Below are positions 10,483 through 30,644 of a stretch of 64,000 bases of DNA, one piece after another. Within the stretch, counting starts at the first letter, position 1. Each line of letters opens with the position of its first letter. The stretch comes from Gammaproteobacteria bacterium (GTDB taxonomy: Bacteria; Pseudomonadota; Gammaproteobacteria; Pseudomonadales; Azotimanducaceae): positions 1 through 64,000 of the forward strand of contig QJYB01000118.1 in assembly GCA_003247835.1 (NCBI GenBank), given 5' to 3'. The position numbers and the translations under genes were made by a program. A model generated the notes under the pieces. The model worked only from the letters and a program-made list of their open reading frames with translations, had not been told where the DNA came from and ran no database searches.

Positions 10483-10559
10483 TCCTTGATTCCGATCCCG
10501 AAAAAGGGTTGGAATCCTAAGCGAAGCGCGCTTCTCAATCACCCCGAGCAACCGAGACG

Positions 10560-11501: not shown

Positions 11502-11529
11502 CGCCGAGGGCCGGCCGGATCGCGCGGGC

Positions 11530-11535
11530 TATACT
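11530..11535 (+). promoter_or_regulatory. Putative -10 box of the Tat amidohydrolase gene
   Basis: TATACT lies 26 bp before the ATG, followed by the strong ribosome site AAGGAGGA (from 11546). A start of transcription near 11542 would give a very short leader. No convincing -35 box is seen. Confidence 0.4.
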
Positions 11536-11561
11536 CGGCCCGACCAAGGAGGAGCGATTCC

Positions 11562-13043: not shown

Positions 13044-13118
13044 GCGCATCGACGCCGCTGGGAGAGCGGCGCGCGCCCGCGGTAGCGGTGGTCACGCATT
13101 CCAAATCAAGGAACGATC

Positions 13119-15293: not shown

Positions 15294-15352
15294 GCCCGGC
15301 CAGTGCGCTACCATACGCCGCCCGCCACCTCCAAGGATGAGGACCTGTCTCG

Positions 15353-15952
15353 ATGAACAAGACGTTACCGGTCACCGCTCTGCTCAGCACGCTGCTGGTG
15401 CTCGCCGCCTGCTCCAGCAGCCCGTCGATCAGGAGTGACTTCGACTACAACCACGAGATCGATTTCACGCAGTACCGGACCTACGCCTTCATCTCCGATC
15501 ATCCCATGGCGGTCAGTCAGGCTCAGGGGGCAGTCAGCCCGCTGCTGGAAGGACGCATCATGGAGTCGATCCGTATCGCCATGAACGCCAAGGGCTACAA
15601 CGAGGTGAAGGACGCGGAGTCTGCCGACGTCGCCATCGGCTTCACCATCGGGACACGGGATCAGATCAAGGTGGATTCCTATCCGGCCAGCTACTCGGCC
15701 GGGTTCGCGCGCCGCGGCTACTACTACGGCTACGGCATGGGTACGGAAACCTACGTCCGCCAGTACACCGAAGGACAGCTGGCCATCGACGTCTTCGACG
15801 TCAGGAGCCACACGCCCGCTTTCCACGGCATCGCCAGCAAGCGGATCTCGGAGTCCGACCGCAAGGACCAGCAGCCCGTGCTGAACGCGGTCGCCGCCCA
15901 GGCACTGGCCGCGTTCCCCGCCACAGGCGGCAGCGTCGTCCCGAAGAGCTGA
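15353..15952 (+). CDS. DUF4136 lipoprotein
   Basis: 199-residue lipoprotein: signal peptide with lipobox LAAC (Cys at 20) then a DUF4136 domain recognisable by SDFDYNHEIDFTQYRTYAF near the start, VAIGFTIG in the middle and LAIDVFDVRSHTPAFHGIASK towards the end. Family members are small envelope proteins of unknown function. A Gly/Tyr-rich patch (RRGYYYGYGMG) lies mid-protein. A DUF4136 gene next to an outer-membrane protein gene is common, but no functional link is established. Confidence 0.85.
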   Translation: MNKTLPVTALLSTLLVLAACSSSPSIRSDFDYNHEIDFTQYRTYAFISDHPMAVSQAQGAVSPLLEGRIMESIRIAMNAKGYNEVKDAESADVAIGFTIGTRDQIKVDSYPASYSAGFARRGYYYGYGMGTETYVRQYTEGQLAIDVFDVRSHTPAFHGIASKRISESDRKDQQPVLNAVAAQALAAFPATGGSVVPKS

Positions 15953-15961
15953 TCTCGCCGG

Positions 15962-16717
15962 CTAGCGACGGAAGTCCGGCTGGGTCCGATCCAGCCGACG
16001 CAGCAGCGCCTCCCAGAGCAGATCGCGCACCGGCGTGACCCCGACGCCCGAGCCGAACAGCGCCGCGGTCTTCTCCATGATCTTGTCGGAGATGTGGATG
16101 AGTGGCGCATCGCCGGTTTCCGCCGCAACCTGGATCTCGCAGGCACGCTCGAGGTTGTAGAGCGCCTGAAAGGCCAGCGACACCGTGGCACCCACGGTGA
16201 TCAGGCCGTGATTGCGCAGGATCATGTGCCGCGCCTCGCCCAGATCCGCCTGCAGACGGGGCGCCTCGGCCGGATCGAGCACCACGCCCTCGTAGTCGTG
16301 ATAGGCGAGCGAGCCCGCGACGATCATCGACTGCTGCGAGACGTTGCGAAGCCCCTCGACGCGACTGGCCACCGCGGTACCGGCCACGGTGTGCACGTGC
16401 GCCACGCAGTTCACGTCCTGGCGCGCGCTGAGTATGGCGCCGTGGATGACGTTGGCCTCCGGCGAGATCTCGTAGTCGCTCTCCAGCAGCTTCTGCCCCC
16501 GGTAGTCGACCTTGAGCAGGCTGGACGCCGTAATCTCCTCGAAGAGCAGCCCGAACGGATTGATGAGGTAGGCCTCCTCACCCGGCACCCGGCAGGAGAT
16601 GTGGGCGAGCAGCAGGTCGTCCCAGCCGTAGTCGGCGACCAGACGATAGAAAGCCGCGAGGTCCTGGCGCGCACACCATTCCGCCTCGCTGACCGACTTC
16701 CGCAGGTTGATCGTCAT
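15962..16717 (-). CDS. Class II aldolase/adducin family protein
   Basis: 251 residues of the Zn-dependent class II aldolase/adducin fold. The metal ligands are visible as H-x-H in CVAHVHTVAG and a third His in LRNHGLITVG; the catalytic-type Glu sits in SPEANVIHGAIL. Family members cleave or isomerise sugar phosphates or act on keto-acids, and many in catabolic clusters are decarboxylases or lyases of unknown substrate. It is convergent with the DUF4136 gene and divergent from the CoA ligase, with about 140 bp between, so it may share regulation with the latter. Confidence 0.85.
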   Translation of the reverse strand: MTINLRKSVSEAEWCARQDLAAFYRLVADYGWDDLLLAHISCRVPGEEAYLINPFGLLFEEITASSLLKVDYRGQKLLESDYEISPEANVIHGAILSARQDVNCVAHVHTVAGTAVASRVEGLRNVSQQSMIVAGSLAYHDYEGVVLDPAEAPRLQADLGEARHMILRNHGLITVGATVSLAFQALYNLERACEIQVAAETGDAPLIHISDKIMEKTAALFGSGVGVTPVRDLLWEALLRRLDRTQPDFRR

Positions 16718-16860
16718 CGCACCCCATCCTTCCCCGGCACCATGCCGATTCTACCCCGCCCGCGCGCGTCTGCTCACGCGCCGGAACCGGGCTTTCCCGG
16801 AACCCGCAGACACGGTATTTTTTCCCGTTCGTTCGACTTCTGGCATCTCGGGGGACATTC

Positions 16861-18483
16861 ATGAGCAGTATCTATCCCTGGAACTACGGCGACATTCTGG
16901 AGGCCATCGACGCCACGGTTCCGAAGGAAAGACCGGCATTCATTCACGGTGAGCGCATCATCACGTGGGGTGAGTTCGCCACACGCAGCAATAACCTGGC
17001 CCGGGCCCTGCTCGCAGGCGGGGCGGGTAGCGGCGACAAGATCGCCTTCTACCTGCGCAACTGCCCGGAGTACGGAGAGGGCATCGCCGCCGCGTTCAAG
17101 GCCCGTCTCACCCACGTGAACGTGAACTACCGCTACGTGGACCACGAGCTCGTCTATCTGCTCGACAACTCGGACGCCACGGTCGTGGTCTACGGCGCCG
17201 AGTTCACGGAACACGTCCGCCACATCCGCGGCAAGCTCCCCAAGGTGGCCCAGTGGATCGAGGTGAACGACGGCTATGCCGGCGAAGACGGCGCCGTCCG
17301 CTATGACGACCTGGTCACCGCAGGAGACGGCAGCCCGCTGGCCATGGAAAGATCCCCGGACGACCTGCTGTTCCTCTACACCGGAGGCACCACTGGAATG
17401 CCCAAGGGCGTGATGTGGCGACACCAGGACCTCTGGTGCGTGACCGGAGCGGGCGGCAATCCCCGGGCGGGTATCCCGCCGGCGCCGGATCTCGATACCT
17501 ACATCAGACGTCTCAGTGGGGAGGCGCCGCCCGTGAACCTGCCCCTGCCACCCATCATGCACGGCACCGGTCTGCTCGCCGCCATCGGCGCCATGTCCCG
17601 CGCCGGCAGCTGTGTCACCCTGCCTGGTCGCAGCTTCGAGCCGGAGCAGGCGCTGGCCGCCATCGACCGGCACAAGGTCACGGCCGCCACCATCGTCGGC
17701 GACGCCTTCGCCCGGCCCATGCTGGAGGCGCTGGATGCGAATCCCGGCAGGTACGACATCTCCTCGCTCCGCGTGATCAGCTCCTCAGGCGTGATGTGGA
17801 CCCGCAAGATCAAGGAGGGCCTCATCCGCCACAACCCGGAGCTGATGCTGGCGGACGGCTTCTCCTCTTCCGAGGCCATCGGTCTCGGCGCATCGATCAC
17901 CACCCGTGAGGCATCCGTGGACGTGGCCAAGTTCACCCTCGGACCCACCTGCAAGGTCTTCGATGAGCATTTCCGTGAGGTCGGTGTCGGGGAATCCGGC
18001 ATGGTCGGCGTGTCCGGCTTTCTGCCCATCGGTTACTACAAGGACGAGGAAAAGAGCGCCAGGACTTTTCCGGTGATCAACGGCGTGCGCTACTCCATCC
18101 CCGGTGACTGGGTGCGTATCGAGACGGACGGCTCACTCACCCTGCTGGGACGCGGCAGCAACTGCATCAACACCGCCGGTGAGAAGGTCTACCCCGAAGA
18201 GGTGGAGGAGGCGCTCAAGCACCATGAATCCGTCTCGGATGCACTGGTGGTGGGGCTGCCGGATGACAAGTGGGGTCAGTCCGTGAACGCCGTGGTCTCC
18301 CTGCACGACGGTTACGCGCTGGATGAGGTGGCGCTGAAGGACTTCGCCCGCCGGGAGCTGGCCGGCTACAAGCTGCCCAAGCGCATCCTCGCCAAGGACG
18401 ACCTGGAGCGGGCTCCGAACGGCAAGGCCAACTACAAGCTGATCCGCGAGTACGCAGCGAAGCAGCTCGCCATCGAGCTCTGA
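16861..18483 (+). CDS. FadD19-like acyl-CoA synthetase
   Basis: 540-residue ATP-dependent acyl-CoA ligase (ANL superfamily). The P-loop reads LFLYTGGTTGMPKGVMWRH; the GVMWRH ending is typical of the mycobacterial FadD19/FadD17-type steroid side-chain ligases. INGVRYSIPGDWVRIETDG, LGRGSNCINTAGEKVYPEEVEEAL and the late Lys in PNGKANYK complete the adenylation and thioester motifs. It activates a bulky carboxylic acid to its CoA thioester in the cytoplasm; a sterol or terpenoid side chain is an inference from similarity only. Neighbours (crotonase, aldolase, TetR regulator) fit a beta-oxidation or retro-aldol side-chain route. The stop is 9 bp from the convergent crotonase stop. Confidence 0.9.
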   Translation: MSSIYPWNYGDILEAIDATVPKERPAFIHGERIITWGEFATRSNNLARALLAGGAGSGDKIAFYLRNCPEYGEGIAAAFKARLTHVNVNYRYVDHELVYLLDNSDATVVVYGAEFTEHVRHIRGKLPKVAQWIEVNDGYAGEDGAVRYDDLVTAGDGSPLAMERSPDDLLFLYTGGTTGMPKGVMWRHQDLWCVTGAGGNPRAGIPPAPDLDTYIRRLSGEAPPVNLPLPPIMHGTGLLAAIGAMSRAGSCVTLPGRSFEPEQALAAIDRHKVTAATIVGDAFARPMLEALDANPGRYDISSLRVISSSGVMWTRKIKEGLIRHNPELMLADGFSSSEAIGLGASITTREASVDVAKFTLGPTCKVFDEHFREVGVGESGMVGVSGFLPIGYYKDEEKSARTFPVINGVRYSIPGDWVRIETDGSLTLLGRGSNCINTAGEKVYPEEVEEALKHHESVSDALVVGLPDDKWGQSVNAVVSLHDGYALDEVALKDFARRELAGYKLPKRILAKDDLERAPNGKANYKLIREYAAKQLAIEL

Positions 18484-18492
18484 GCGGCGCCG

Positions 18493-19233
18493 TCACGCGG
18501 CGCCAGGCAGCCTGACCCGCGTATCACCCCGCTGCCGGTAGGCGGCAGGCGTCAGCTCCGAATCGATGGCGTTGCGCATGGCCGCCATGGCCGGCCCCCT
18601 GAGCCGCGCCTTGGCGGCGGCGTGGGCGGCTGTGTCCAGTGCCATCAGCTGCCCGAGCCGATCGCCGAGCAGCGCGTCCAGCTCGCCGGCATCGACCACC
18701 TGGTCGAGTAAGCCGGCGCCGAGCGCCTCATCCGGCTCGAACATCTCACCCAATGTCACCGTCCGGCTGAGCCAGGCAGGATGCAGGCGGCTGCGCGCCA
18801 GCTCCACGGCAAACCCGGGCGGCGTGATCCGGATCGCGACCTCGTTCAGCCCCATTCTCCAAGGTCCCCGCGAGGCGATACGGAGGTCGCTGGCGAGCAG
18901 CAGAAAGGTTCCCATGGGAAAGGCATGACCTTCCATGACCCCAACCGTCGGCAGCGGAAAGGCCATCAGGCGCAGCGCCAGCTCCGCGCCGGTGCGCACC
19001 ATCGCGAGGCTCCCCTCGGCGTCGTTGGCCGCAAACACCTTCAGATCGAAGCCGGCCGAGAAGATCCCCGGCCGACCTGAGCGCAGCACGACCACCCGGG
19101 CTTCGTTCCCGGCGCGGCTGAACGCGTCGTCGAGTGCTGTGAGCATCGCGATGGACATGACGTTCACCTTGCCATCGTCCATGGTGATGCGCGCCACACC
19201 ATCCGACATTTCGTAGGTCACTGGGCCAGACAT
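18493..19233 (-). CDS. Enoyl-CoA hydratase/isomerase (crotonase) family protein
   Basis: 246-residue crotonase-fold protein. The first oxyanion-hole strand is GIFSAGFDLKVF; the second is altered to GHAFPMGTFLLLASD where GxAxGGG is usual, and the acid in LNEVAIRI (position of Glu164) is kept while the Glu144 position is not. That pattern points to an isomerase, hydrolase or other crotonase rather than a classical hydratase. The ATG at 19233 has a strong GGAGG site; an in-frame extension to 19374 crosses the TetR operator and is rejected. Divergent from the TetR-type regulator and probably repressed by it. Confidence 0.88.
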   Translation of the reverse strand: MSGPVTYEMSDGVARITMDDGKVNVMSIAMLTALDDAFSRAGNEARVVVLRSGRPGIFSAGFDLKVFAANDAEGSLAMVRTGAELALRLMAFPLPTVGVMEGHAFPMGTFLLLASDLRIASRGPWRMGLNEVAIRITPPGFAVELARSRLHPAWLSRTVTLGEMFEPDEALGAGLLDQVVDAGELDALLGDRLGQLMALDTAAHAAAKARLRGPAMAAMRNAIDSELTPAAYRQRGDTRVRLPGAA

Positions 19234-19268
19234 GACTGCCTCCGGTTCGATTGATCTGGACGCCAGCA

Positions 19269-19301
19269 TTGACAGCTGAATTAGACCAGTCAACATAGTT
19301 T
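19269..19301. promoter_or_regulatory. TetR operator (LmrA/YxaF-like box) overlapping divergent promoters
   Basis: TTAGACCAGTCAACATAGTT at 19281-19300 closely resembles the box I recall for Bacillus LmrA/YxaF repressors (core GACCAGTC followed by an A/T-rich CTATATTT-like tail). A consensus -35 TTGACA (19269-19274) precedes it in the direction of the regulator, with CATAGT (19294-19299) as a possible -10 at 19-bp spacing. On the opposite strand TTGACT (complement of 19288-19293) could serve the crotonase gene. A repressor bound here would block both promoters. Confidence 0.6.
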
Positions 19302-19324
19302 CCACGAGATGAGAGAACAGCTCG

Positions 19325-19918
19325 TTGCCGCGACCGCCGAAACACCGAAAACCCATCATCGACGCCTCCGTCACCCTGTTCCGGCGCCACGGCTACGGCG
19401 CGACCGGACTCAACGACATCGTCGAATGGAGCGGCGCGCCGAAAGGATCGCTCTATCACTACTTCCCGGGCGGCAAGCCGTCCATTGCCGTCGCGGCGGT
19501 TGAGGAGGCGGGACGTCGCGTCGTCGCCACGCTCGAAACGCTGGCTGCGGAAACCACCTCCACCGGCGAGCTGCTCTGCGCCCACGCCCGACTGCTGTCC
19601 CGCTGGATGGCGAAATCCGGATTCAGGGACGGCTGCCCGATGACCACCGTGCTGCTCGAGCTCACACCGGCCGACCGGTCGGTGAACGAGGCTGGACGGT
19701 CGGCCTACGACGCCCGCATCCGCATCCTGACTCAGAAGCTCCGCGCCGACGGTTTCGACGACGCGCGCGCCACGCGGCTGGCCTCGCTGTGTACGGCCGC
19801 GCTGCAGGGTGCGCTCATCGAGGCGCGGGTCCGGCGTACCGGAAAACCGCTGATGATCGCGGCAGAGGAGCTGTCTCGGATGCTCGAAGAATCCCTCAGG
19901 CCTCGAGCGCCTTCATGA
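19325..19918 (+). CDS. TetR/AcrR family regulator, LmrA/YxaF-like
   Basis: 197 residues. N-terminal HTH reads IIDASVTLFRRHGYGATGLNDIV-WSGAPKGSLYHYFPGGK, with the GSLYHYFPGGK ending that marks the LmrA/YxaF branch, and the C-terminal domain has the branch's CPMTTVLLEL. The first possible start in frame is TTG at 19325 (a TGA lies at 19310). Likely represses itself and the divergent crotonase through the box at 19281-19301. In Bacillus this branch responds to flavonoid- or drug-like ligands; here a pathway intermediate is plausible. Its last 23 bp overlap the convergent nucleoside hydrolase. Confidence 0.88.
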   Translation: MPRPPKHRKPIIDASVTLFRRHGYGATGLNDIVEWSGAPKGSLYHYFPGGKPSIAVAAVEEAGRRVVATLETLAAETTSTGELLCAHARLLSRWMAKSGFRDGCPMTTVLLELTPADRSVNEAGRSAYDARIRILTQKLRADGFDDARATRLASLCTAALQGALIEARVRRTGKPLMIAAEELSRMLEESLRPRAPS

Positions 19919-20909
19919 TCAGCGCCAGAGCCGCAGTGGCGTCGATGTGGAATGCCACATCGATCTGCGGAGTGACGTGCCGGGCGGCATGGCGCTGGTC
20001 GAATACCGTCATGCCCCGGGTGAGCGTGCCCGTGAGCTCCACCGCCGCAGGCAGCCGGTGGAACTCGAAAAGGGACGGGTGCGTGACGGCGAGCACCGCA
20101 CAGGGATCGTGCAGAGCCGCCGCGGCGCGCCCCCGCAGCTCGGTCATGCGCCGGTGCAGGTAGGTGATCACCTCGGCGGCGAACCGCGCCCGGGACGTCG
20201 CCATGGCAGAGATCCGCTCGAGCAGTTCCGCCGAAGTCTCGACCTGGTGGGTGAGATTGAGCCCGCACAACCGGATGTGCGCACCGGAGCGGATCACCAC
20301 ATCCGCCGCTTCGGGATCCGCCCAGACGTTGAACTCCGCGGTCGCGGTGACGTTCCCGCCGGTGGTGCTGCCGCCCATGATGGAGATGCCGGCAAGTCGA
20401 TCCGCAAACACCGGGTCCCGGCGGATCGCGTGTGCGACGTTGGTCAGCGGACCGATGGCGACCAGCCACAGGTCCGGATATCGCTGCGATGCATCGATCA
20501 GAAATCCCGCCGCGTCATCGCCACTCTGCGCCCGGCCCGGCTCCGGCAGGGTGACGCCGTTCAGGCCGGTCGCACCGTGGACGTGGGTGGCATGGGGAAC
20601 CACACCATCGGCAGGCAGTACCAGCGGGCCATCGGCACCGGCATGAACGGGCACCTCGAGGTTCGCGAGGGTCAGCACCCTGAGTGCGTTGTTCGTCACG
20701 GCACCAAGTGGCGCGTTGCCACTCACCGTGGTCACGCCGACAACATCGCAAACGCGGCTGGCCAGCAGCAGCGCCAGCGCGTCGTCGTGTCCAGGATCGC
20801 AGTCGATGACGATCTTCACCCGAGAAGCAGTCGCCTCCGTCCTAAGCGACTGCGAAGCAGTCGCCTCCATCCTAAGCGACTGCGAAGCAGTCGCCGTTTC
20901 CTTTCCCAT
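19896..20909 (-). CDS. Inosine-uridine-type nucleoside hydrolase
   Basis: 337 residues from ATG 20909. The Ca2+-binding N-terminal signature DCDPGHDDALALLLA and the block LWLVAIGPLTNVAHAIRR are typical of the IU nucleoside hydrolase family, which splits ribonucleosides to base and ribose; FNVWADPEAADVVIRSG supplies the second metal-site Asp region. The first 30 residues (TATASQSLR-MEATASQSLR-TEATASR) come from a 30-bp tandem DNA repeat and are foreign to the family. GTG at 20819, right at VKIVIDCD, gives the normal length (307) but lacks a well-spaced ribosome site, so the start is uncertain. Confidence 0.9.
   Translation of the reverse strand: MGKETATASQSLRMEATASQSLRTEATASRVKIVIDCDPGHDDALALLLASRVCDVVGVTTVSGNAPLGAVTNNALRVLTLANLEVPVHAGADGPLVLPADGVVPHATHVHGATGLNGVTLPEPGRAQSGDDAAGFLIDASQRYPDLWLVAIGPLTNVAHAIRRDPVFADRLAGISIMGGSTTGGNVTATAEFNVWADPEAADVVIRSGAHIRLCGLNLTHQVETSAELLERISAMATSRARFAAEVITYLHRRMTELRGRAAAALHDPCAVLAVTHPSLFEFHRLPAAVELTGTLTRGMTVFDQRHAARHVTPQIDVAFHIDATAALALIMKALEA
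20824..20895. repeat. Tandem 30-bp repeat with internal palindrome (2.4 copies)
   Basis: Two full 30-bp units (20824-20853 and 20854-20883, one mismatch) and a 12-bp partial third unit. Each unit carries the inverted repeat GCAGTCGC...GCGACTGC around an 11-bp loop, like REP-type hairpins. The 30-bp period keeps the nucleoside hydrolase frame open. Confidence 0.85.
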
Positions 20910-20935
20910 TCTTTATGACATCATAGGCGGTCATC

Positions 20936-21244: not shown

Positions 21245-21664
21245 TCACTCCCCGCCCCGGCTCGGGAACCAGGCGCTGTCCGTCAGCGCCCTGAGCACGT
21301 CCCGACGACAGAGCAGACCCACCAGCACGCCGCCGTCCACCACGGGGAACCGGCGATGCGACGATTCCACGAATCGCTCGGCCACGTCCATGAGACTGTC
21401 GTCCGGATGCACGGTCTCGAGGCTCCGTGTCATGAAATCACCCACGCTGCCGACGATCTCGTCGAAATATCCGGCCTGAGTTCCGACTCGGATGATGTCC
21501 CTTTCGGTCAGCATGCCGAGCAGCTGCCCGGCATCGTTCACTACCGGGAATCCCGAAAGGTCCTCTTCGACAAGGAGCCCGACGGCCCGCATGATTTCCA
21601 TGTCCGGCGTGACCGTGCGCACTTCTGTCGTCATGTAGTCTCTCACCCGTCGCGGTTCCACCAT
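21245..21664 (-). CDS. CBS-domain protein at the end of the nqr operon
   Basis: 139 residues made of two CBS motifs: RRVRDYMTTEVRTVTPDMEIMRAVGLL...GFPVVNDAGQLLGMLTERD and DFMTRSLETVHPDDSLMDVAERF...RFPVVDGGVLVGLLCRRDVL. Such stand-alone Bateman pairs bind adenine nucleotides (AMP, ATP, NAD-type ligands) and modulate partners. The start is 4 bp downstream of the nqrF stop, so it is co-transcribed as a seventh gene. A role in sensing adenylate or NADH state for the NQR complex is an inference from position. Confidence 0.88.
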   Translation of the reverse strand: MVEPRRVRDYMTTEVRTVTPDMEIMRAVGLLVEEDLSGFPVVNDAGQLLGMLTERDIIRVGTQAGYFDEIVGSVGDFMTRSLETVHPDDSLMDVAERFVESSHRRFPVVDGGVLVGLLCRRDVLRALTDSAWFPSRGGE

Positions 21665-21668
21665 GACG

Positions 21669-22916
21669 TCACCCCTTGGTCAGACTGCCGAAGTCGTCGA
21701 AATACACACTCTCCCGATCCACCCCCAGATCCTCCAGCATGGCAAGAACCGCGCTGCTCATCACAGGTGGCCCACAGAGATAGTACTCCGCTGATTCCGG
21801 ACTCGGATGCCCTTTCAGATAGGCTTCGAAGACGTGCTTGTGGATGAACCCGGTAGCACCCTGCCAGCCGGAATCCGGTGCAGGATCCGACAGCGCCACG
21901 TGATAGGAAAAATTGGCGTGCTGCGACTCGAGTGTGCGGAACTCGTCGGCGTAGACGAGCTCCAGCTCGTTGCGACACCCATACCAGAGGCTGATCCGGC
22001 GACGACTCGACCGGCCGATGAGCTGGTCGCGGACGATGGCTCTGAGGGGAGCGATACCCGCGCCGCCGCCGATGAGGATCATTTCCCGGTCCGTGTCCCG
22101 TGCGTGGAACTCGCCGAAGGGACCGGACACCACAACCTCGTCCCCGGCCTTCAGCCCGAAGATCCACGACGACACCCTGCCGGGCGGCGTGTCGGGTGGC
22201 GCGGTCACCGGCGGCAGCGCGATGCGGACCACGAGCTGGATGACGTCAGATTCCACGGGTGGATTGCCGAGGGAGTAGGCCCGGGTCGTCGGCTCGGCGA
22301 TGGTCACCGAATGCCTGAAGAGCGCGAGCCTTTCCCACTCGCCCCGATAGTCCGGGTCGATCTCGAACTCCCGGAACCGGACGGTACCCGCGGGCGCCTC
22401 GACGAGCACATAGTCGCCGGCCTCGAAGGTCAGCCGCTCCCCGTCCGGCAGACTCAGGCTGAGCTCGGTCAGATAGGTGGAGAGGTTCCGGTTCGAGACC
22501 ACCCGGCAGCGCCAGCGGCCGGCTTCCAGCACATCCGCCGGGACCTGCACCGCGAGGTCATCCCGCACCCGCAGCATGCAGGCCAGTCTGAATCCCGCCG
22601 CCGCGTCCCGCCGGTTCACGTGCTGCATCTCCGTCGGCAGCAGGTGTCCACCGCCACGGGTGACCTGCACCCGGCACTGGCCACAGGTGCCGCGGCCACC
22701 ACAGGCCGCGGGCAGGTGGATGCCCGCCGCATCGAGCGTTGCGAGGAGCGAGTCGCCCGACGTGACGGCCAGGTCGCGCTGCCCGTTCACCGTGATCGTC
22801 ACCGGTCGTCGCAGCGTGAGCCGGCGACGGACCACCAGCACTGCGCCCGACAGCGCGGCCACGAGCATCGTGAACAGCATCATCGGCAGCAGGAAAGGTA
22901 GCGCGTAGGACAGCAT
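21669..22916 (-). CDS. nqrF: Na+-NQR subunit F (NADH dehydrogenase, 2Fe-2S/FAD)
   Basis: 415 residues. One N-terminal membrane helix (LPFLLPMMLFTMLVAALSG), a plant-ferredoxin-type 2Fe-2S domain with C-x5-C-x2-C (ACGGRGTCGQC) and a later Cys in FRLACML, then a ferredoxin-reductase-like module: FAD strand TTRAYSLGNPP, NADH-binding GGGAGIAPLRAIV, and YLCGPPVM near the C-terminus. NqrF takes electrons from NADH and passes them via FAD and 2Fe-2S into the NqrD/E iron site. The start at 22916 gives the standard NqrF membrane anchor, and nqrE ends 1 bp before it. Length is near normal (about 408). Confidence 0.95.
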   Translation of the reverse strand: MLSYALPFLLPMMLFTMLVAALSGAVLVVRRRLTLRRPVTITVNGQRDLAVTSGDSLLATLDAAGIHLPAACGGRGTCGQCRVQVTRGGGHLLPTEMQHVNRRDAAAGFRLACMLRVRDDLAVQVPADVLEAGRWRCRVVSNRNLSTYLTELSLSLPDGERLTFEAGDYVLVEAPAGTVRFREFEIDPDYRGEWERLALFRHSVTIAEPTTRAYSLGNPPVESDVIQLVVRIALPPVTAPPDTPPGRVSSWIFGLKAGDEVVVSGPFGEFHARDTDREMILIGGGAGIAPLRAIVRDQLIGRSSRRRISLWYGCRNELELVYADEFRTLESQHANFSYHVALSDPAPDSGWQGATGFIHKHVFEAYLKGHPSPESAEYYLCGPPVMSSAVLAMLEDLGVDRESVYFDDFGSLTKG

Positions 22917-22917
22917 A

Positions 22918-23526
22918 TCAGGATGCCACGCCGGCCAGCCCGGCAAAGCCGAAAGCCAGCAGCCCGGCAATGATGAAGGCGAGGCCCAGACCTTCGAGAC
23001 CGGCAGGGACGTCGCAATGACGCGTGCGCTCACGCAGCGCGGCAAACAGCACGATTGCCACGGCCCAGCCGGTACCCGAGCCGAGCCCGTAGGCCACACT
23101 CTCGGTGAACGTGTAGCTGCGCTGCACCATGAACAGCGTGCCGCCGAGAATGGCGCAGTTGACCGTCAGCAGTGGCAGGTAGATTCCCAGGCTCTGCTGC
23201 AGCGCAGGAGCGTAGCGGTCGAGCACCACGTCGAGAATCTGCACCGTGGCAGCGATTACACCGATGAACGTGACCAGCCGCATGAAGGACAGATCGAGCT
23301 CCGGCAGACCTGCCCAGCCGAGTGCGCCCGGTGCGAGCAGCAGCTGATCGATGGCGTTGTTCAAAGGCACCGTCAGCGTCTGTACCGCGATCACGGCGAT
23401 TCCGAGCCCGATGGCCGTCTCCACCCTTTTCGACACGGCAAGGTAGGTACACATGCCGAGCAGGAAGACGAGGGCCAGGTTCTCCACCAGCATGGCGGTG
23501 AGTGCGATGTCGAAGAGTTGCCTCAT
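22918..23526 (-). CDS. nqrE: Na+-NQR subunit E
   Basis: 202-residue membrane protein with six helices, matching NqrE. It keeps both cysteines that with NqrD hold the intramembrane iron-sulfur centre: Cys26 in LLGMCTYLAV and Cys124 in LTVNCAILGG. VPLNNAIDQLLL and the ending GLAFIIAGLLAFGFAGLAG are typical. NqrE and NqrD are inverted-topology homologues that alternate access during Na+ pumping. ATG overlaps the nqrD stop in ATGA. Confidence 0.95.
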   Translation of the reverse strand: MRQLFDIALTAMLVENLALVFLLGMCTYLAVSKRVETAIGLGIAVIAVQTLTVPLNNAIDQLLLAPGALGWAGLPELDLSFMRLVTFIGVIAATVQILDVVLDRYAPALQQSLGIYLPLLTVNCAILGGTLFMVQRSYTFTESVAYGLGSGTGWAVAIVLFAALRERTRHCDVPAGLEGLGLAFIIAGLLAFGFAGLAGVAS

Positions 23527-24182
23527 GACGACGTTTCCCGATAACCCGCACGCACCGGGGGATATTCGCGAACCTCGGCCTGCCGGGGCAGAAGGCTCCG
23601 GATGGCCCAGATCAGGAAACCGATCAGGAAAAAAGCACTCGGCGCGTACAGCATCATGTGGTTGGTGCGGAACCAGCCGCCGGCCTCGACCAGAGGCAGG
23701 ACGGGGTGGTCGAAGAGCGTGCCTGCTCCCAGCAGTTCCCGGATCGCCGCCACACCGATCAGAATGATCGCGTAGCCGAACCCGTTACCGAGCGCGTCCG
23801 CCACGCTCTCGAGGGGCCCATGGCGCAGTGCAAATGCCTCGGCGCGTCCCAGGATGATGCAGTTGGTGATGATCAGTCCGACGAACACACTGAGCACCTC
23901 GGAGATTCCCGGCGCGTAGGCCTTCAGGGTTTCATCGACGACGATGACGGCGGAAGCGATCAACGTCACCTCGAGGATCAGCCGGATGCTGTTCGGCAGC
24001 ACGTGCCGCAGCAGACTCACCATCAGGTTCGAGAAGACCAGCACCGAGATCACGCTCACCGCCATGATCAGCGCCGGCTCCATGGAGCGGGATACCGCCA
24101 GCGCGGAGCAGAGACCGAGAATCTGCACGGTGATCGGATTCTCGCTGACCAGCGGCTCGGTCACGTAACGGACGAGACTCAT
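23523..24182 (-). CDS. nqrD: Na+-NQR subunit D
   Basis: 219-residue integral membrane subunit, six helices. Start block VTEPLVSENPITVQILGLCSALAVS and ITNCIILGRAEAFAL contain Cys25 and Cys108, the expected ligands of the iron centre shared with NqrE. ADALGNGFGYAIILIGVAAIRELLGAGTL is a strong NqrD/RnfE signature, and GWFRTNHMMLYAPSAFFLIGFLIW fits NqrD rather than RnfE. Overlaps nqrC by 4 bp. Confidence 0.95.
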   Translation of the reverse strand: MSLVRYVTEPLVSENPITVQILGLCSALAVSRSMEPALIMAVSVISVLVFSNLMVSLLRHVLPNSIRLILEVTLIASAVIVVDETLKAYAPGISEVLSVFVGLIITNCIILGRAEAFALRHGPLESVADALGNGFGYAIILIGVAAIRELLGAGTLFDHPVLPLVEAGGWFRTNHMMLYAPSAFFLIGFLIWAIRSLLPRQAEVREYPPVRAGYRETSS

Positions 24183-24910
24183 GGCGTCATACCCTCCCGT
24201 CTGGCGAGCGCAGTGAGTGCCCTCGCGTAGCCATCTTCCCCGAGCCAGGCCCTGACCAGGCGTCCCACGGCCCTGGAGCTGACGGTCGCCCCGGTGATCG
24301 TATCGACCCTGTACTCGGCAGGCACAGACGGATCGTCGCTGACATCAAAGATCAGATCACCGCCTGCGTTCCTAAGCCGCTTGCCCGGCCAGAGCGAGAG
24401 CCATTGCGGATTCTGGATACGGTCACCGATGCCGGGCGTCTCGCCGTGCTCATAGACAACGAAGGCCGCCACGGTGTTGAGGTCCGCTTCCAGCGCCAGG
24501 TAGGCATGGATGGTCGACCACATGCCTCGCCCGTCTACCGGCAGCACCACACGCACGAGCCTTCCCGACTCGTGGCGCAGATAGATAGGCACCTCCGGCG
24601 GCACAGTGTCACCACCGGCCGCCCAGTGATCGAAACTGTAGCCGTCCACACCCTCGACCACCGCACCGGTGCCGAGCTCGATCACCTCCGCATCGAGGCT
24701 CAGGAAATCGCTGACCACCGTATCGTCGGACGCGTCTGCGCTGGCGAGTCCCGCTGCTTCGACGATGGCCCGGTTCCGCTCGACTGCCGCATAGGCCGCC
24801 TGCACCGGGCGCAGCAGGTGAACGGCAACAGTCACCATGGCCGAGCAGAACAGCGCCACCCCCACGGCCACCAGCATGGTGCGTCCCGCGGATTCCTCGC
24901 CCGTGTTCAC
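24179..24910 (-). CDS. nqrC: Na+-NQR subunit C (FMN-carrying)
   Basis: 243 residues: one N-terminal helix (TMLVAVGVALFCSAMVTVAVHLL) and a periplasmic FMN-binding domain. MWSTIHAYLALEADLNTV and FVVYEHGETPGIGDRI are family blocks. The flavinylation motif reads DTITGATVSS (203-212), close to the family's SGATLTS, with Ser where the second Thr usually stands. Covalent FMN would need an ApbE-type transferase, which is not in the window. Stop and start overlap both neighbours by 4 bp, so translation is coupled. Confidence 0.93.
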   Translation of the reverse strand: MNTGEESAGRTMLVAVGVALFCSAMVTVAVHLLRPVQAAYAAVERNRAIVEAAGLASADASDDTVVSDFLSLDAEVIELGTGAVVEGVDGYSFDHWAAGGDTVPPEVPIYLRHESGRLVRVVLPVDGRGMWSTIHAYLALEADLNTVAAFVVYEHGETPGIGDRIQNPQWLSLWPGKRLRNAGGDLIFDVSDDPSVPAEYRVDTITGATVSSRAVGRLVRAWLGEDGYARALTALARREGMTP

Positions 24911-25950
24911 GACACGTCTCCGGCCACCCGGTACCGGCGCAGCACCAGGTGGTCCATGATCGGCACGGCGAGGCCCGCCAGCAGCAGCGCGAACAGTGAT
25001 CCTTCCGGATGAACCGGATCCAGAACACGGATGATCACGGTGAGCGCCCCGAACAGCGCGCCGTAGAGCCAGCGTGTACTACGCAGCAGCGGCGCGGGGC
25101 TCGGATCCGTCGCGAGAAAGGCCAGTGAGAAGGCGAAGTTACCGAGCAGCACGTGTCGCCAGACTTCGAGCTGCGCCAGCGGATCGGCAGCGCCCCACCT
25201 CAGCACCGCACCACTGACGAGAACCCCCACACCAGCTCCGGCGAGCACACGCCAGGAAGCGATGCGACAGACCACGAGCATTAGAGCGCCGAAAAGGCAG
25301 GCGAGCGCGGAGGTGGTGCCGATGCCGCCGGGCACGATACCGATCAGCGCCTGCATAACCGCCGGCGCATCACCGCCGCTGTCGACCGTCTGCGGCCAGT
25401 CGCCGACCACCGTGCCCGGCACCGCGAGCGCCGACGTGAGGAACTCCGGATAGCTGAAGTGCACGAACAGCACGCCGAGCAGCGCGGGATTCACCAGATA
25501 GCGGCCGGTACCACCGAAGATATGCAGACCCACCACGGCACCGAAGCTCGCTGCCAGAGCCGCCACACCGAGGGTGGTTCCAGGCGGCAGCAGCCAGATC
25601 AGCAGCCAGGCACTGGTAAACCATCCGGCATCCACCGGTCTGTTCCGCATCCGCGCGAACACGGCCGCCCAGAACGCGGAGGTACCGATCGCAACGGCGG
25701 CAAGCGGTACCACCGTGCCGAGTCCCATGACCGCCGCCACCAGCACCCGTTCCGCCGCGGCCGACGGATCGGCAAGGTTAGCCACCACGCCCAGCCAGGC
25801 CGGCACCATCTCCACCAGACCACCTTCGATGGCGAGCAGCGTCTGCCAGCCGAGATTCCAGGTCCCCAGCAGCGCGGCTGGGAGCGACGCCAGTACGAAA
25901 AGTCGCATCACCGATCGGGTCCGCCAGGCTGCGTGGACGTGTGGCCGCAC
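24907..25950 (-). CDS. nqrB: Na+-NQR subunit B, variant without SGAT motif
   Basis: 347-residue membrane subunit. Identity is clear from LHIFGGTGRYLVNPALLG, IPGxIG-like VPGGIGTTSALACL, RIASWRVLAGAGVG, LLGNFAFSLAFLATDP and IIRVLDPVHPEGSLFALLLAGLAVPIMDH. Two departures from Vibrio NqrB (about 415 residues): the N-terminal 50-60 residues are missing, and where FMN is bound to Thr in DGFSGATAL this protein reads VDSGGDAPAV (189-198). NqrB is the quinone- and riboflavin-binding core, so electron transfer here must differ or skip this FMN. The start is GTG 25950, right after the nqrA stop, with GGGAG upstream. Confidence 0.93.
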   Translation of the reverse strand: MRPHVHAAWRTRSVMRLFVLASLPAALLGTWNLGWQTLLAIEGGLVEMVPAWLGVVANLADPSAAAERVLVAAVMGLGTVVPLAAVAIGTSAFWAAVFARMRNRPVDAGWFTSAWLLIWLLPPGTTLGVAALAASFGAVVGLHIFGGTGRYLVNPALLGVLFVHFSYPEFLTSALAVPGTVVGDWPQTVDSGGDAPAVMQALIGIVPGGIGTTSALACLFGALMLVVCRIASWRVLAGAGVGVLVSGAVLRWGAADPLAQLEVWRHVLLGNFAFSLAFLATDPSPAPLLRSTRWLYGALFGALTVIIRVLDPVHPEGSLFALLLAGLAVPIMDHLVLRRYRVAGDVS

Positions 25951-25952
25951 CG

Positions 25953-27182
25953 TCAGCTCCCGCGGCGGAGCAGATCGAGTGTGCGTTCCAGCGCGGCGCC
26001 GTAGTCGAGCCGGGCGGGACAGAGATAGGCGCACAGCGCCAGATCTTCCGGCGCGAGGCAGGTGGCGCCGAGCGCGGCTACCGTTTCCGTATCCTCCACC
26101 AGAATCGCCTTGAGCAGGGGAAGCACCGGCACGTCCAGTGGCCACACCCGCTCGAAGAGCTCGAGCGAGAGCATGCCCGAGCTGTCCGGCACTTCGGCGG
26201 GCGCTGCTTCCAGCACGCTCACCTGCTGGTGATAGCGACCGAGAAAGGCCGGCGCTCTGCCGCTTTCCCGCCCGGAGAGCACCGAACCGGAGATGACGCG
26301 AGCGCCGTCCGGCAGCGCGCCAGTCAAACCGTCCAGCGACGCGCCCATGAGGGTTCGGACCACACGACCCTGCGGCAGGCCGGGACCGGCGACGGTCACG
26401 GTTCGGTCTGCGCTCAGGCGTCCGGTCAGGAACAGAGCGCCGATGGCGATCACATCCTGATAGCCCACGTACCAGACCGGAGACTGCGGCGCCCTTCTCC
26501 CCTGCTGGCTGGCGATCCCGTAGATGAGCGTGCCGGGCAGGCCCGCCGGATGTGGTCCGCTGACCCGCACCGGCACGATGGTCGCGGATTCCGGGCAGGA
26601 CAGGTCCGCGTCGGATGCCATGCACACGTAACAGGTCTGTACCAGCAGCGACAGGCGCGAGATCCCCTCCCGGAACTCCTCCGCACGGGCCTGGACAAGG
26701 GGTGCCGGATCCGGTGCAAGCGGGTTGGTATCGAGCGCCACGACGCAGAGCGCGTTGGCGGTCTCGTCCGGTCCGGGAATCCTGTCGTAGGGCCTGGCAC
26801 GCAGCGCGGCCCACAAGCCGGCCGTCTGCAGCGCCTCGCGGATCTCCTCCGCGGAACCCGGTGTCCCCCGGAGCACGGTGGGGTTTGGATGGCCGGCATC
26901 CACATCGATGACCACCGACTCGAGCCGTCGTCTTGGACCCATTTCCACGGCGCGCACACGACCCGCCGCCGGTGCCGTGAAGCGCAGCGCCGGATTGGTG
27001 CGGTCCGTGAACAGCACGTCTCCCCGCCGCACCGTATCACCGACGGCAACGGCGGGCTGGGTCCGCACCGTCGGGTAATCCGCTCCCAGCAGGGCCACCG
27101 CAGCGGGCTGGACGTCGATCACGTCGACGGGCGTCGGCCCCAGCGCCAGGTTCAGACCATCATGGATCTCGAGCTGTATCAT
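25953..27182 (-). CDS. nqrA: Na+-NQR subunit A
   Basis: 409-residue cytoplasmic/peripheral subunit, first gene of the operon. VQPAAVALLGADYPTVRTQPAVAVGDTVRRGDVLF and FTAPAAGRVRAV form the lipoyl-like domain with the GxxG turns seen in NqrA; VWYVGYQDVIAIGALFLTGRL and RTLMGASLDGLTGAL are later family blocks. It has a short cysteine pair near YVCMASDADLSCPE. It is somewhat shorter than typical NqrA (about 446). Start ATG 27182 (MIQLEIHDGL). The gene is divergent from a decaheme cytochrome gene 160 bp away. Confidence 0.93.
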   Translation of the reverse strand: MIQLEIHDGLNLALGPTPVDVIDVQPAAVALLGADYPTVRTQPAVAVGDTVRRGDVLFTDRTNPALRFTAPAAGRVRAVEMGPRRRLESVVIDVDAGHPNPTVLRGTPGSAEEIREALQTAGLWAALRARPYDRIPGPDETANALCVVALDTNPLAPDPAPLVQARAEEFREGISRLSLLVQTCYVCMASDADLSCPESATIVPVRVSGPHPAGLPGTLIYGIASQQGRRAPQSPVWYVGYQDVIAIGALFLTGRLSADRTVTVAGPGLPQGRVVRTLMGASLDGLTGALPDGARVISGSVLSGRESGRAPAFLGRYHQQVSVLEAAPAEVPDSSGMLSLELFERVWPLDVPVLPLLKAILVEDTETVAALGATCLAPEDLALCAYLCPARLDYGAALERTLDLLRRGS

Positions 27183-27342
27183 GCGAAGATCAGTCAATCC
27201 GGGGTCGCGACCAGCGGCCAATGTTCGTCGAAACCGATATGAGGGGGCATTAGGTGGAACCCCCGGTATGGATCGGAGCCACAGTCTGCCATGGTGCCGC
27301 AGGCAAAGAAGAAATGCTGTCAGCGAGGGAGCGCATTGCCAC
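27183..27342. promoter_or_regulatory. Divergent control region between nqrA and the decaheme cytochrome gene
   Basis: 160 bp that must hold the promoters of both operons. A GGGGG (27243-27247) ... CCCCC (27260-27264) inverted repeat lies near the middle and could be an operator or leader hairpin. No consensus -35/-10 pair stands out on either strand. The in-frame region upstream of 27343 could be read as an N-terminal extension of the cytochrome, but it would hide the signal peptide. Confidence 0.35.
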
Positions 27343-28245
27343 ATGCCGAACATGCTATCGGAGTACGTCGGAACCGCTGAAACCACAGCGCGCTGGCGGA
27401 TCCGCGGGGGATTCCTCCCCACAGGATTCGTCATCCTTGCGATAGTCCTGGTCACTGCGGACCTGGCGGTCGCCGCCGACGTGCCCTGCGGCGCGTGCCA
27501 TGCCGAGGCGGCGGGCAGCCTGTCCGGTACCCCGCACGGCGTTGCGCTCGACGGCAACTGCACCGCCTGCCACGGTGACGGCACCGCACATCTGTCGAGC
27601 CCGTCCGCGGCCACCATCCGCACCTTCTCGTCGGAACCGCCTGCCGAGCAGAACGCGGTCTGCACCGCCTGCCACCGTGAAGAAGAGCTCGCGCAGACCA
27701 CTCCCCACTCGGCTGCCGGTCTCGCGTGCACGAGCTGTCACACGATCCACGGTAAAAAAAAAGTCCTGACGCTGCCGGCGGGTTTTGAGCACGTCGCCGA
27801 GGGCTCGAGTGCATGCTTCGAGTGCCATGAGGCAGTATTCAGTCAGTTCGCCTTCAACGAGCGGCACCGGCTGGCCGAAGGCGCGGTCACCTGCACCTCC
27901 TGTCACGACCCCCACAATCCGCGACACGGCATGGCTCTCGGCGGCTTCGACGACGACACCTGCGCCGCCTGCCATGCCGATCTCACCGGTCCGTTCGTCT
28001 TCGAGCACGCCGCTTCCCGTGTCGAGGGTTGCACCGCCTGCCACGAACCCCACGGCAGCCCCAACCGTCATCTCCTCAAGTTCCAGGCCGTGGGTTCCCT
28101 GTGCTACTCCTGCCACGCGGAGGTCGCGCAGTTCCACCTGGGATTCGGACCCGCAGGGCCGCCGCGATTCAATGAGCAGACGGTCTGCACCAACTGTCAC
28201 GTCGCCATCCACGGCTCCAACCTCGACCCCCAGTTCCTGAAATGA
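27343..28245 (+). CDS. Decaheme c-type cytochrome, MtrA/PioA/DmsE type
   Basis: 300 residues with a signal sequence (GFLPTGFVILAIVLVTADLAVA-A) and exactly ten CxxCH haem sites: CGACH, CTACH, CTACH, CTSCH, CFECH, CTSCH, CAACH, CTACH, CYSCH and CTNCH. Distal His residues appear in CHTIHG, CHDPHN, CHEPHG and CHVAIHG. This is the size and haem count of MtrA/DmsE/PioA periplasmic cytochromes, which sit inside an outer-membrane barrel and wire the periplasm to the outside. The barrel gene follows directly. ATG 27343 is chosen because it opens the signal peptide; there is a GAGGGAG stretch 11 bp upstream. Direction of electron flow cannot be read from sequence. Confidence 0.92.
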   Translation: MPNMLSEYVGTAETTARWRIRGGFLPTGFVILAIVLVTADLAVAADVPCGACHAEAAGSLSGTPHGVALDGNCTACHGDGTAHLSSPSAATIRTFSSEPPAEQNAVCTACHREEELAQTTPHSAAGLACTSCHTIHGKKKVLTLPAGFEHVAEGSSACFECHEAVFSQFAFNERHRLAEGAVTCTSCHDPHNPRHGMALGGFDDDTCAACHADLTGPFVFEHAASRVEGCTACHEPHGSPNRHLLKFQAVGSLCYSCHAEVAQFHLGFGPAGPPRFNEQTVCTNCHVAIHGSNLDPQFLK

Positions 28246-28254
28246 GGATCTGAA

Positions 28255-30114
28255 GTGCGGCAGCCTATGAACACACTCGTCCTCAGGGGATTCCTTGCCG
28301 GCAGCCTCCCCCTGCTCTCCGCCGGTGCGCTCGCGTCGGAGTTCACCGGGCTCATCGACATGGGCGTGCGCAAGGTGAATGTCAGCGGCGACGAGAACAA
28401 GTACCGGCAGCAGCTCAACCTGGACAGCGGTCCGCGCCTCCTTGGTCTCGAGCTCGCGTTCGAGCCCGGGACGGGCAGCGGCCAGGCGCCGGATCGGGTC
28501 GCGGTCAGCGCCTATGGTCTCGGCGGCGACCCCTACTCGAGCATCGAGGCGGAAGTCCGGAAGTACGGCGCGTACGACTTCGAGTATCAGCACCGGGAGT
28601 CCGAGTACTACTACGACGACCTCCTCATCGACCCCGCGGATATCGTTCCGAGCGCGTCGAACGGCGGCGACTACCGGACCTTCGACCTGAAGCGGGTGCA
28701 GGACGCCGCGGATTTCCAGATCCGGCTCACTGACCGGGCCAGGCTCAACCTCGGCTTCGACCGCTACCAGCGGAGCGGCGCAAGCACCTCCCCCATCGAC
28801 ATCGCCCGGGAAGAGTTCGAGCTCGACGCGCCCGTCGACGAGGTGCTGCAGACCTACGAGGCCGGTTTCCGCTACGACTGGGAACGCTGGAGTCTCAAAT
28901 TCGATCAGCGCCGGCGCGAGTTCGACAGCAAGGCCAGCGCCTTTCTTCCCGGCGCTTCCGAAGGCAGCGATCCGGTCGCGCCGACGCGGCTCACGAACTA
29001 CGTCCTCGATCAGCCGTACAGCTACGACACGAGCGAAAGCCAGCTCGGGGTCAAGGCCCGCCTCTCGGAGCGCTGGAAGGTGTCGGCCGATGTTTTCTAC
29101 GCCGATCTCGACATGGACTTCGATGTGCGCGAGACGGTCCAGGGCACGAACTTCGACGGAACCGATCTCGCGGGCACCACCAATGGCGGCGGCGACGCGG
29201 ATCGGCAGACCACGCAGCTCTTCCTCACAACCAGTTACGACGTCACGAACCGGGTCCGTCTCACCGCCAGCGTCCGCGATCAGTCTCTCGACCAGGATGC
29301 AGCAGGCCTGTTCGGCGCTGCCGTGGGTCTTTCCGACTGGAAAATGGACACGACCGGCTACGCGCTAGGGGTGGAGACTGTCATCGGCGACGCGTGGACA
29401 GTGAGCGGCGGCTGGACAGGGGAGTCGCGCAAGACCCGCTACTCGGCCGAGCAGGATACCGTCACTGCCGGCGAGGACGTGAAAACGAAACGCGACGGAG
29501 TCTATGCGCTGGTCACCTACCGGCCGGGCAGCCACTGGAACTTAAGCTTCTCGGCCGAGGACAACGGTATCGACGACCCCTTCACCCTGGCCTCACCGAC
29601 GGATGCCACTCGATTCCGCCTGCGCGGCAGCTACCGGTGGGACCTGGGGCTGTCGCTGACAGGCACGTACACGTACCGCAAGAACAGGAACGACCAGTCG
29701 AGCTGGTCCTCGAAAACCGAGCAGGCCGACTTCCGGCTGTCCTACCAGAACGGGCCGCTGACCGCCGCCTTCGGTGCCTCTTTCGTCGTAATCGACCGCA
29801 GCATGGATCAGCTCGTCACCGGCGGCACCCGTCAGGATCTGTTCCTGATCCGTTACGACGCGGATGCGGATACCGTGGACGGATCGATCCGCTGGGCGGT
29901 GAGCGAGCGGCTGGCCCTGTCTGCCAGCCTGCGTGACTACGACAACGAGGGCAGCTTCGCGGTGGAAAGGCAGGACGCGCTGCTTGGTGCGCGCATCGAT
30001 CTCTCCCGGGGATTCGGCCTGGACCTGTCCTACCGCTACGTCAACTTCGACGAGGACGACCTGGAGAATTTCGACGCCGACATCTGGCAGGCGTCGCTGA
30101 TCTTCGACTGGTAG
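28255..30114 (+). CDS. MtrB/PioB family outer-membrane beta-barrel
   Basis: 619 residues: signal peptide ending AGALAS, then a short N-terminal segment (FTGLIDMGVRKVNVSGDENKYRQQ) and repeated amphipathic strands to the final SLIFDW with C-terminal Trp. The opening E-x-x-G-x-(V/I)-(D/E)-x-G and the many D-rich turns match MtrB/PioB porins that sheath a decaheme cytochrome. I see no cysteine, so it lacks the CxxC of Shewanella MtrB. GTG 28255 has GAGG 7 bp upstream, overlapping the cytochrome stop; ATG 28267 is possible but has no ribosome site. No gene for an MtrC-like surface cytochrome follows. Confidence 0.87.
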   Translation: MRQPMNTLVLRGFLAGSLPLLSAGALASEFTGLIDMGVRKVNVSGDENKYRQQLNLDSGPRLLGLELAFEPGTGSGQAPDRVAVSAYGLGGDPYSSIEAEVRKYGAYDFEYQHRESEYYYDDLLIDPADIVPSASNGGDYRTFDLKRVQDAADFQIRLTDRARLNLGFDRYQRSGASTSPIDIAREEFELDAPVDEVLQTYEAGFRYDWERWSLKFDQRRREFDSKASAFLPGASEGSDPVAPTRLTNYVLDQPYSYDTSESQLGVKARLSERWKVSADVFYADLDMDFDVRETVQGTNFDGTDLAGTTNGGGDADRQTTQLFLTTSYDVTNRVRLTASVRDQSLDQDAAGLFGAAVGLSDWKMDTTGYALGVETVIGDAWTVSGGWTGESRKTRYSAEQDTVTAGEDVKTKRDGVYALVTYRPGSHWNLSFSAEDNGIDDPFTLASPTDATRFRLRGSYRWDLGLSLTGTYTYRKNRNDQSSWSSKTEQADFRLSYQNGPLTAAFGASFVVIDRSMDQLVTGGTRQDLFLIRYDADADTVDGSIRWAVSERLALSASLRDYDNEGSFAVERQDALLGARIDLSRGFGLDLSYRYVNFDEDDLENFDADIWQASLIFDW

Positions 30115-30167: not shown

Positions 30168-30644
30168 ATGCGAAGGAGAGCGAACACACTGCTGGTGCTC
30201 ACCGTTGTGTGGGTCGGCGTGCCGGTTGCGTACGGATCCGGGGAAACGGAGCCGTCTGCCGTGGCCCCGGCGCCGAGTGCCAGCCTCGTCATCGAGCTCA
30301 CCGGCATGACGAGTGACGAAGGTCCGGTCGTCTACGCGGTCTGGTCGGGTCCGGAGCACTGGCTGGAAGCAGGCGCGATCCGCGAAGGGAAGGTGCCCGT
30401 CGAGAACGGTACGGGCACCATCACCCTGGCTGAGATGCCGTACGGGGAGTACGCGGTTTCCGTCTACCACGACAGGAACGGCAACGGGCGGCTCGACACG
30501 GGATTCTTCAGGATTCCGAAGGAGCCAATCGGCACCTCGAACGATGCGAAGATCCGCTTCGGGCCACCACGCTACGAGGATGCGGTCTTCGTTCTCGACC
30601 GTCCTGAAACGACGATCACCATCGCGGTTCACAAGGTCTTCTGA
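30168..30644 (+). CDS. DUF2141 secreted protein
   Basis: 158 residues: signal peptide (LLVLTVVWVGVPVAYGS) and a DUF2141 domain recognised by VIELTGMTSDEGPVVYAVW, MPYGEYAVSVYHDRNGNGRLDTGFF and RIPKEPIGTSNDA. The family adopts a transthyretin-like fold and has no known activity. It sits 53 bp after the barrel gene on the same strand and may be a periplasmic or outer-membrane accessory of that pair; this is a guess from position. Confidence 0.82.
   Translation: MRRRANTLLVLTVVWVGVPVAYGSGETEPSAVAPAPSASLVIELTGMTSDEGPVVYAVWSGPEHWLEAGAIREGKVPVENGTGTITLAEMPYGEYAVSVYHDRNGNGRLDTGFFRIPKEPIGTSNDAKIRFGPPRYEDAVFVLDRPETTITIAVHKVF

Follow-up and report, generated by a model that had tools for sequence, protein, structure and literature searches.

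A decahaem cytochrome and outer-membrane barrel encoded beside a divergent NQR operon in a gammaproteobacterium of the Azotimanducaceae

Genes of the conduit and of the divergent nqr operon

The stretch of DNA analysed here (the window) comprises 64,000 nucleotides of a gammaproteobacterium of the family Azotimanducaceae, whose draft genome consists of 129 contigs. It carries the genes for an mtrA-like cytochrome and an mtrB-like barrel and, divergent from these at a distance of 160 bases, a complete nqrABCDEF-CBS operon that the original prediction for this locus had left unmentioned:

21245..21664, minus strand: CBS-domain protein (PF00571), encoded next after nqrF in each of the five linked operons, as also in the congener G002 (synteny)
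21669..22916, minus strand: nqrF, NADH/FAD/2Fe-2S subunit (TIGR01941, 494.5 bits), four cluster cysteines retained
22918..23526, minus strand: nqrE, both cluster cysteines retained
23523..24182, minus strand: nqrD, both cluster cysteines retained
24179..24910, minus strand: nqrC, membrane-anchored periplasmic FMN protein with TGAT motif
24907..25950, minus strand: nqrB, short divergent subfamily, flavinylation threonine present (GIGTTS)
25953..27182, minus strand: nqrA, matched by NqrA models
27183..27342, no strand: divergent intergenic (promoter) region of 160 bases between nqrA and mtrA
27343..28245, plus strand: mtrA-like periplasmic decahaem cytochrome c, alternative start 27352, ten CxxCH and a signal peptide
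28255..30114, plus strand: mtrB-like outer-membrane barrel, alternative start 28267 (PF11854, 42.3 bits; AlphaFold2 model)
30168..30644, plus strand: DUF2141 protein, marking a site in common with G002 and elsewhere not conserved with the conduit

The ten CxxCH motifs and the signal peptide that had been ascribed to the cytochrome are indeed there: all ten motifs fall in a single 354-codon frame with its stop at 28245 and ATG candidates at 27343 and 27352, and the signal peptide (...LVTADLAVAA, followed by D) is without a lipobox. Every other frame of the window contains at most one CxxCH. By phmmer the protein matches MtrA (6r2q_A) at E=1e-25, and against the DmsE family model TIGR03508 it scores 179.8 bits, just below the cut-off of 192.2. 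Its structure model is poor (pLDDT 64.7), and the top match, still MtrA 6r2q_A (Z 7.8), is by itself no proof. No FNR-like box was found in 27000-27400.

The barrel lies directly downstream, as first described, with 9 bases between the two open reading frames. It has a signal peptide of its own and not a single cysteine, hence no CxxC, and so lacks, as had also been observed, the cysteine pair of Shewanella MtrB; this N-terminal CxxC of metal-reducing gammaproteobacterial MtrB is present in the MtrB-type barrels of Shewanella, Ferrimonas and G592, and also in DmsF. PF11854 (MtrB_PioB) matches the barrel weakly and in two pieces, which together give the 42.3 bits listed above, the MtrB/PioB NCBIfam model does not match it, and phmmer against the PDB found nothing. 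The fold was modelled by AlphaFold2 in a run with 16 relatives, yielding about 26 strands at a pLDDT of 88.8. The top PDB match of this model is MtrB 6r2q_B (Z 26.2, 3.5 Å, 547 of 649 residues), the second-best row following far behind at Z 16.7, and Foldseek against MtrB of the Mtr complex gives E 6.9e-17. Since MtrB is the best match at this score and over these 547 residues, the barrel as modelled is big enough to enclose the cytochrome, a point that had been put forward as a check of the original prediction. The locus is supported as an MtrAB-type two-component trans-outer-membrane conduit.

The linked NQR has its six subunits, nqrA to nqrF, in canonical order. NqrD, NqrE and NqrF of the window score over their equivalog cut-offs, and NqrA, NqrB and NqrC under them. 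The candidate explanation that this is simply the housekeeping copy was rejected, since C10 of the same genome carries an ordinary, separate NQR (and C31 an Rnf). A tree separates the linked NQRs, as a single clade with 100/100 support, from 14 housekeeping copies, to which NqrB and NqrC, the least conserved subunits, show mean identities of 34% and 32%, as against 51-56% for NqrD and NqrE; in NqrB, 43 of 132 positions that are invariant in the 14 housekeeping copies are altered in all five linked copies. The electron-carrying residues are nevertheless intact up to NqrC: the cysteine ligands of NqrF, NqrD and NqrE and the flavinylation sites of NqrB and NqrC are all present in the window, all five linked complexes retain the NqrD and NqrE cysteines as well as the four NqrF cluster cysteines, and the flavinylation motif of NqrC is kept at each of the seven loci with a linked nqrC. 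The flavinylated threonine of NqrB, retained in the window, is lost in G017 and G539. NqrB proteins without this threonine, with a deletion around the site, are encoded at L108:10614-11657 and L157:726-1748.

Relatives of the conduit proteins and other multihaem proteins of the genome

The locus had been taken for a conduit of the PioAB, MtoAB or DmsEF type. Of this reading the two-component layout stands, together with the lack of a surface cytochrome and of a CxxC, in which the window resembles PioAB and MtoAB, compared by layout description only (PMC5566968, PMC8805035). Placement with these systems is not supported: haem spacing, tree and barrel similarity put the proteins, among the references compared (MtrA and DmsE by name), in another branch. 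Haems 7-8 and 8-9 are spaced by 23 and 24 residues in the window cytochrome, as opposed to 22 and 23 in Shewanella MtrA, in DmsE and in alphaproteobacterial rows; the 23/24 spacing is common to the window, eight relatives in the family, one Aminicenantes row and eight Acidobacteria rows. In a maximum-likelihood tree of 79 cytochromes, whose named references include Shewanella MtrA and the DmsE of Ferrimonas and Shewanella, a branch supported at 100/99 parts 18 rows, among them the window cytochrome, from all 61 rows of the MtrA/DmsE type; the phylogeny once suggested as a check thus places the cytochrome outside these references. Similarity of the barrels singles out the same loci. One genome of the class has an MtrA identical to the one of a named Shewanella, which assigns the window to the Gammaproteobacteria. 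As judged by its sequence, the cytochrome belongs to a branch other than MtrA/DmsE, one that it has in common with Acidobacteria and Aminicenantes. Membership of DmsEF was rejected on the tree, on the score below the TIGR03508 cut-off and on context, no dmsAB being adjacent.

Closest kin of both window proteins are decahaem/barrel pairs of Acidobacteria and Aminicenantes (L014, L015-L017, L019, L021, L023, L028 and L035), which have the same spacing of haems 7-8 and 8-9 and, unlike the window, no nqr alongside; in two cases, L023 and L028, an OmcA/MtrC-type cytochrome is encoded upstream. At L015 (13125-15644) a monohaem cytochrome and Rieske/cytochrome-b-like genes lie downstream. With Shewanella MtrCAB (6r2q) the window has in common the decahaem cytochrome and a barrel of MtrB size; it differs in having no MtrC and no barrel CxxC, in cytochrome clade and haem spacing, in a barrel sequence that MtrB models hardly recognise, and in its link to NQR. 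Nor do its surroundings match those of the Fe(II)-oxidising systems to which the layout had been compared: the window conduit is flanked by nqr and CBS genes on one side and by DUF2141 and short-chain dehydrogenase (SDR) genes on the other, no pioC (HiPIP), cymA/mtoC or mtoD is linked to it, and its constant neighbour is an NADH-oxidising module.

Downstream of the barrel follow a DUF2141 protein, a short-chain dehydrogenase and a Nudix hydrolase and, in agreement with the original prediction, no MtrC-like lipoprotein. The 64-kb window holds no MtrC-like gene, and a search of the whole genome for MtrC/OmcA domains gave nothing above the cut-off. As the genome is 88.8% complete, the absence of an MtrC/OmcA surface cytochrome is likely, not certain. 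Multihaem proteins were searched for by a CxxCH pair pattern, which widely spaced haems escape; elsewhere in the genome such pairs occur on C36, C42 and C67 only. C36 (L008:5706-8138) encodes a TPR protein with eight CxxCH that is cytochrome c554-like, and C67 a tetrahaem c3. On C42 (L007:6582-14398) lies a PCC3-like cluster comprising an Fe-S/FAD oxidoreductase, a 282-aa membrane protein, two cytochromes with 21 and 17 CxxCH, and a porin-like protein of 828 aa, in agreement with PCC3 as described in PMC5566968.

Conduit and NQR across the family

Our survey covered 206 genomes (species) of the family. The barrel search yielded nine genomes at 610-1020 bits and six other matches at about 22 bits or less, and a profile of the linked NqrB scored 454-553 bits in exactly five genomes, the next best reaching 301. 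All five are among the nine conduit genomes, and the genes are adjacent in each of them; the probability of this co-occurrence is 4.3e-8 if the genomes are assumed to be independent, a statistic that relatedness inflates. The divergent arrangement of nqr operon and mtrAB is found in five genomes of three genera: in the window, G450 and G539 it lies on one contig, while G017 and G021 show the same arrangement across contig ends that share an exact overlap at the junction (77 and at least 60 bases). In G031 and G473, nqrC alone is divergent from the conduit, with no other nqr gene adjacent (L012:11559-12266, L109:4612-5319). In G512 and G536 the NQR is replaced by a ferric-reductase-like NAD(P)H membrane flavocytochrome (FAD and NAD domains), encoded upstream on the same strand (L111:9026-11598 and L112:8841-11724); a gene with a cytochrome b5 domain between flavocytochrome and conduit was confirmed by Pfam in G536 (L112).

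The congener G002 is without a barrel of the window's type, and its flanks match the window on both sides, one by genes for DUF2141, SDR, Nudix, sorbosone-dehydrogenase-like and methyltransferase proteins, the other by a run of genes matching window positions 9655-20912. Between these flanks (L164:6679-19621, on C42 of G002) lies another NQR operon, nqrA-F with a CBS gene, followed by genes for a decahaem cytochrome of the OmcA/MtrC type (TIGR03507, 480.6 bits), for one with six haems, and for MtrA and MtrB (PF11854, 457 bits). G536 has a second NQR about 10 kb from a tetrahaem-MtrC-MtrA cluster (L165:4197-10210 and L163:6043-10097, C75). From the G002 site and this second NQR it follows that NQR and Mtr-type conduits have been associated more than once in the family. 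The coupling of the present conduit to NQR is lineage-specific, since no nqr lies near its sister conduits in Acidobacteria and Aminicenantes.

Possible routes of electrons through the conduit

The conduit may be wired to a dedicated inner-membrane NADH oxidoreductase, electrons passing from NADH through NQR and MtrA to an outside acceptor, a reading for which we hold belief and doubt to be about evenly balanced. NADH would give its electrons to NqrF; by way of the iron-sulfur clusters of NqrF and NqrD/E these would reach, on the periplasmic side, the FMN covalently bound to NqrC, and from there the decahaem cytochrome seated in the MtrB-like barrel. With no surface cytochrome in between, the decahaem cytochrome would pass them on outside the cell to a metal oxide, a humic or flavin shuttle, an electrode or a partner. 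Because nqrC alone has been kept in two genomes (G031, G473), the simplest reading of the gene content is that NqrC would be the point at which electrons exit to the cytochrome. Outward flow is favoured because, depending on the lineage, the conduit has NADH modules or an NAD(P)H flavocytochrome next to it, and because the same NQR linkage serves an MtrC-bearing conduit in G002; for MtrC-bearing conduits and ferric-reductase-like NAD(P)H modules, outward flow is the normal direction. Export is favoured over Fe(II) oxidation by the NADH-oxidising nature of the conduit's constant neighbour, and since related species keep conduit and spare NQR side by side, the system probably draws its electrons from NADH rather than oxidising iron. 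We infer that NQR and conduit cooperate, that the flow would be outward, that NqrC and not the quinol pool would reduce the cytochrome, and that sodium pumping might persist. Against cooperation it must be said that linkage is not interaction, and that the window NqrB keeps its flavinylated threonine, so quinone reduction may persist.

The main rival is flow in the reverse direction, from an extracellular donor to NAD+, which fits the same gene set: the conduit would oxidise Fe(II), a reduced shuttle or a cathode, and the NQR, reversed on the sodium-motive force, would make NADH. NQR-type complexes are reversible in principle, and the conduit has neither surface cytochrome nor CxxC, as in MtoAB and PioAB. 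Such uptake also agrees with the PCC3-like cluster elsewhere in the genome, since clusters of this type were originally reported from Fe(II) oxidisers (PMC5566968). However, the cytochrome lies outside the MtrA/DmsE clade, and the same linkage extends to an MtrC-bearing conduit in G002 and to the ferric-reductase-like NAD(P)H module of G512 and G536; we consider uptake rather unlikely. A similarly low probability is assigned to co-regulation without cooperation, whereby the NQR would reduce ubiquinone and a dehydrogenase from another locus would supply the cytochrome with electrons of the quinol pool. That arrangement would be suited by the full set of NqrA-F with intact NADH-side residues, by the flavinylated threonine of the window NqrB, and by the precedent of Shewanella, where CymA connects quinol to MtrA (PMC8805035); yet the threonine losses in G017 and G539 and the nqrC-only loci in G031 and G473 are hard to reconcile with quinone reduction, a housekeeping NQR is already present, and no quinol dehydrogenase gene is linked.

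It is quite improbable that the conduit works for an extracellular enzyme or a partner cytochrome whose gene lies at another locus, in the manner of DmsEF or with the giant cytochromes of C42. The 21- and 17-CxxCH cytochromes of the PCC3-like cluster could be such partners, and an outer multihaem gene pairing with the barrel had been named as a finding that would speak against the original prediction; but that cluster owns a porin, three of the nine conduit genomes match its second cytochrome in full or in part and the other six lack it, and there are no dmsAB-like genes near the conduit. A chance neighbourhood or an assembly artefact, which might be suspected in a draft of so many contigs, is very improbable indeed and is refuted by independent genomes: the same divergent arrangement recurs in five of them, from three genera, on single contigs or across overlapping contig ends, with co-occurrence in five of five.

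In Mtr and Mto models, CymA-like proteins carry electrons between the conduit and the quinol pool. NQR goes unmentioned in a survey of the quinol oxidases and quinone reductases that take part in extracellular electron transfer (PMC6295460), and no report of an NQR linked to a porin-cytochrome conduit was found in the freely accessible literature searched. If the NADH-fed reading is true, a dedicated NQR would offer a route from NADH to the outside through an outer-membrane conduit, possibly a sodium-pumping one, and would help to explain the discharge of electrons by bacteria that have a conduit and no linked CymA or MtrC; it predicts that NqrC reduces the cytochrome, which can be tested in vitro.

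In the NQR route, electrons go from NADH to the extracytosolic flavin of NqrC and back to quinone (PMC10979944). Only tentatively do we propose that the linked NQR has taken on a changed role, exporting electrons from NADH independently of quinone, with the NqrC flavin reducing the cytochrome directly and perhaps with sodium pumping. By analogy, and with the same reserve, such an exporter might be a bacterial counterpart of Rnf-MmcA of Methanosarcina acetivorans, where a multihaem cytochrome encoded in the Rnf operon passes electrons to extracellular acceptors (PMC11024163; reviewed in PMC12174285). The likeness lies in the combination of an Rnf/NQR-type complex with a multihaem cytochrome; unlike the window, that system is archaeal, uses Rnf and not NQR, and has no outer membrane or porin. 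For two-subunit Nqr/Rnf-like complexes, in which the NqrB-like subunit is without a flavinylation site, one-way transfer from NAD(P)H to the extracytosolic side through an NqrC-like FMN protein has been proposed (PMC10979944). The linked complexes of G017 and G539, having lost the flavinylation site of NqrB, resemble these, which suggests a similar outward transfer, though the linked complexes have the full set of six NQR subunits and are associated with an outer-membrane conduit.
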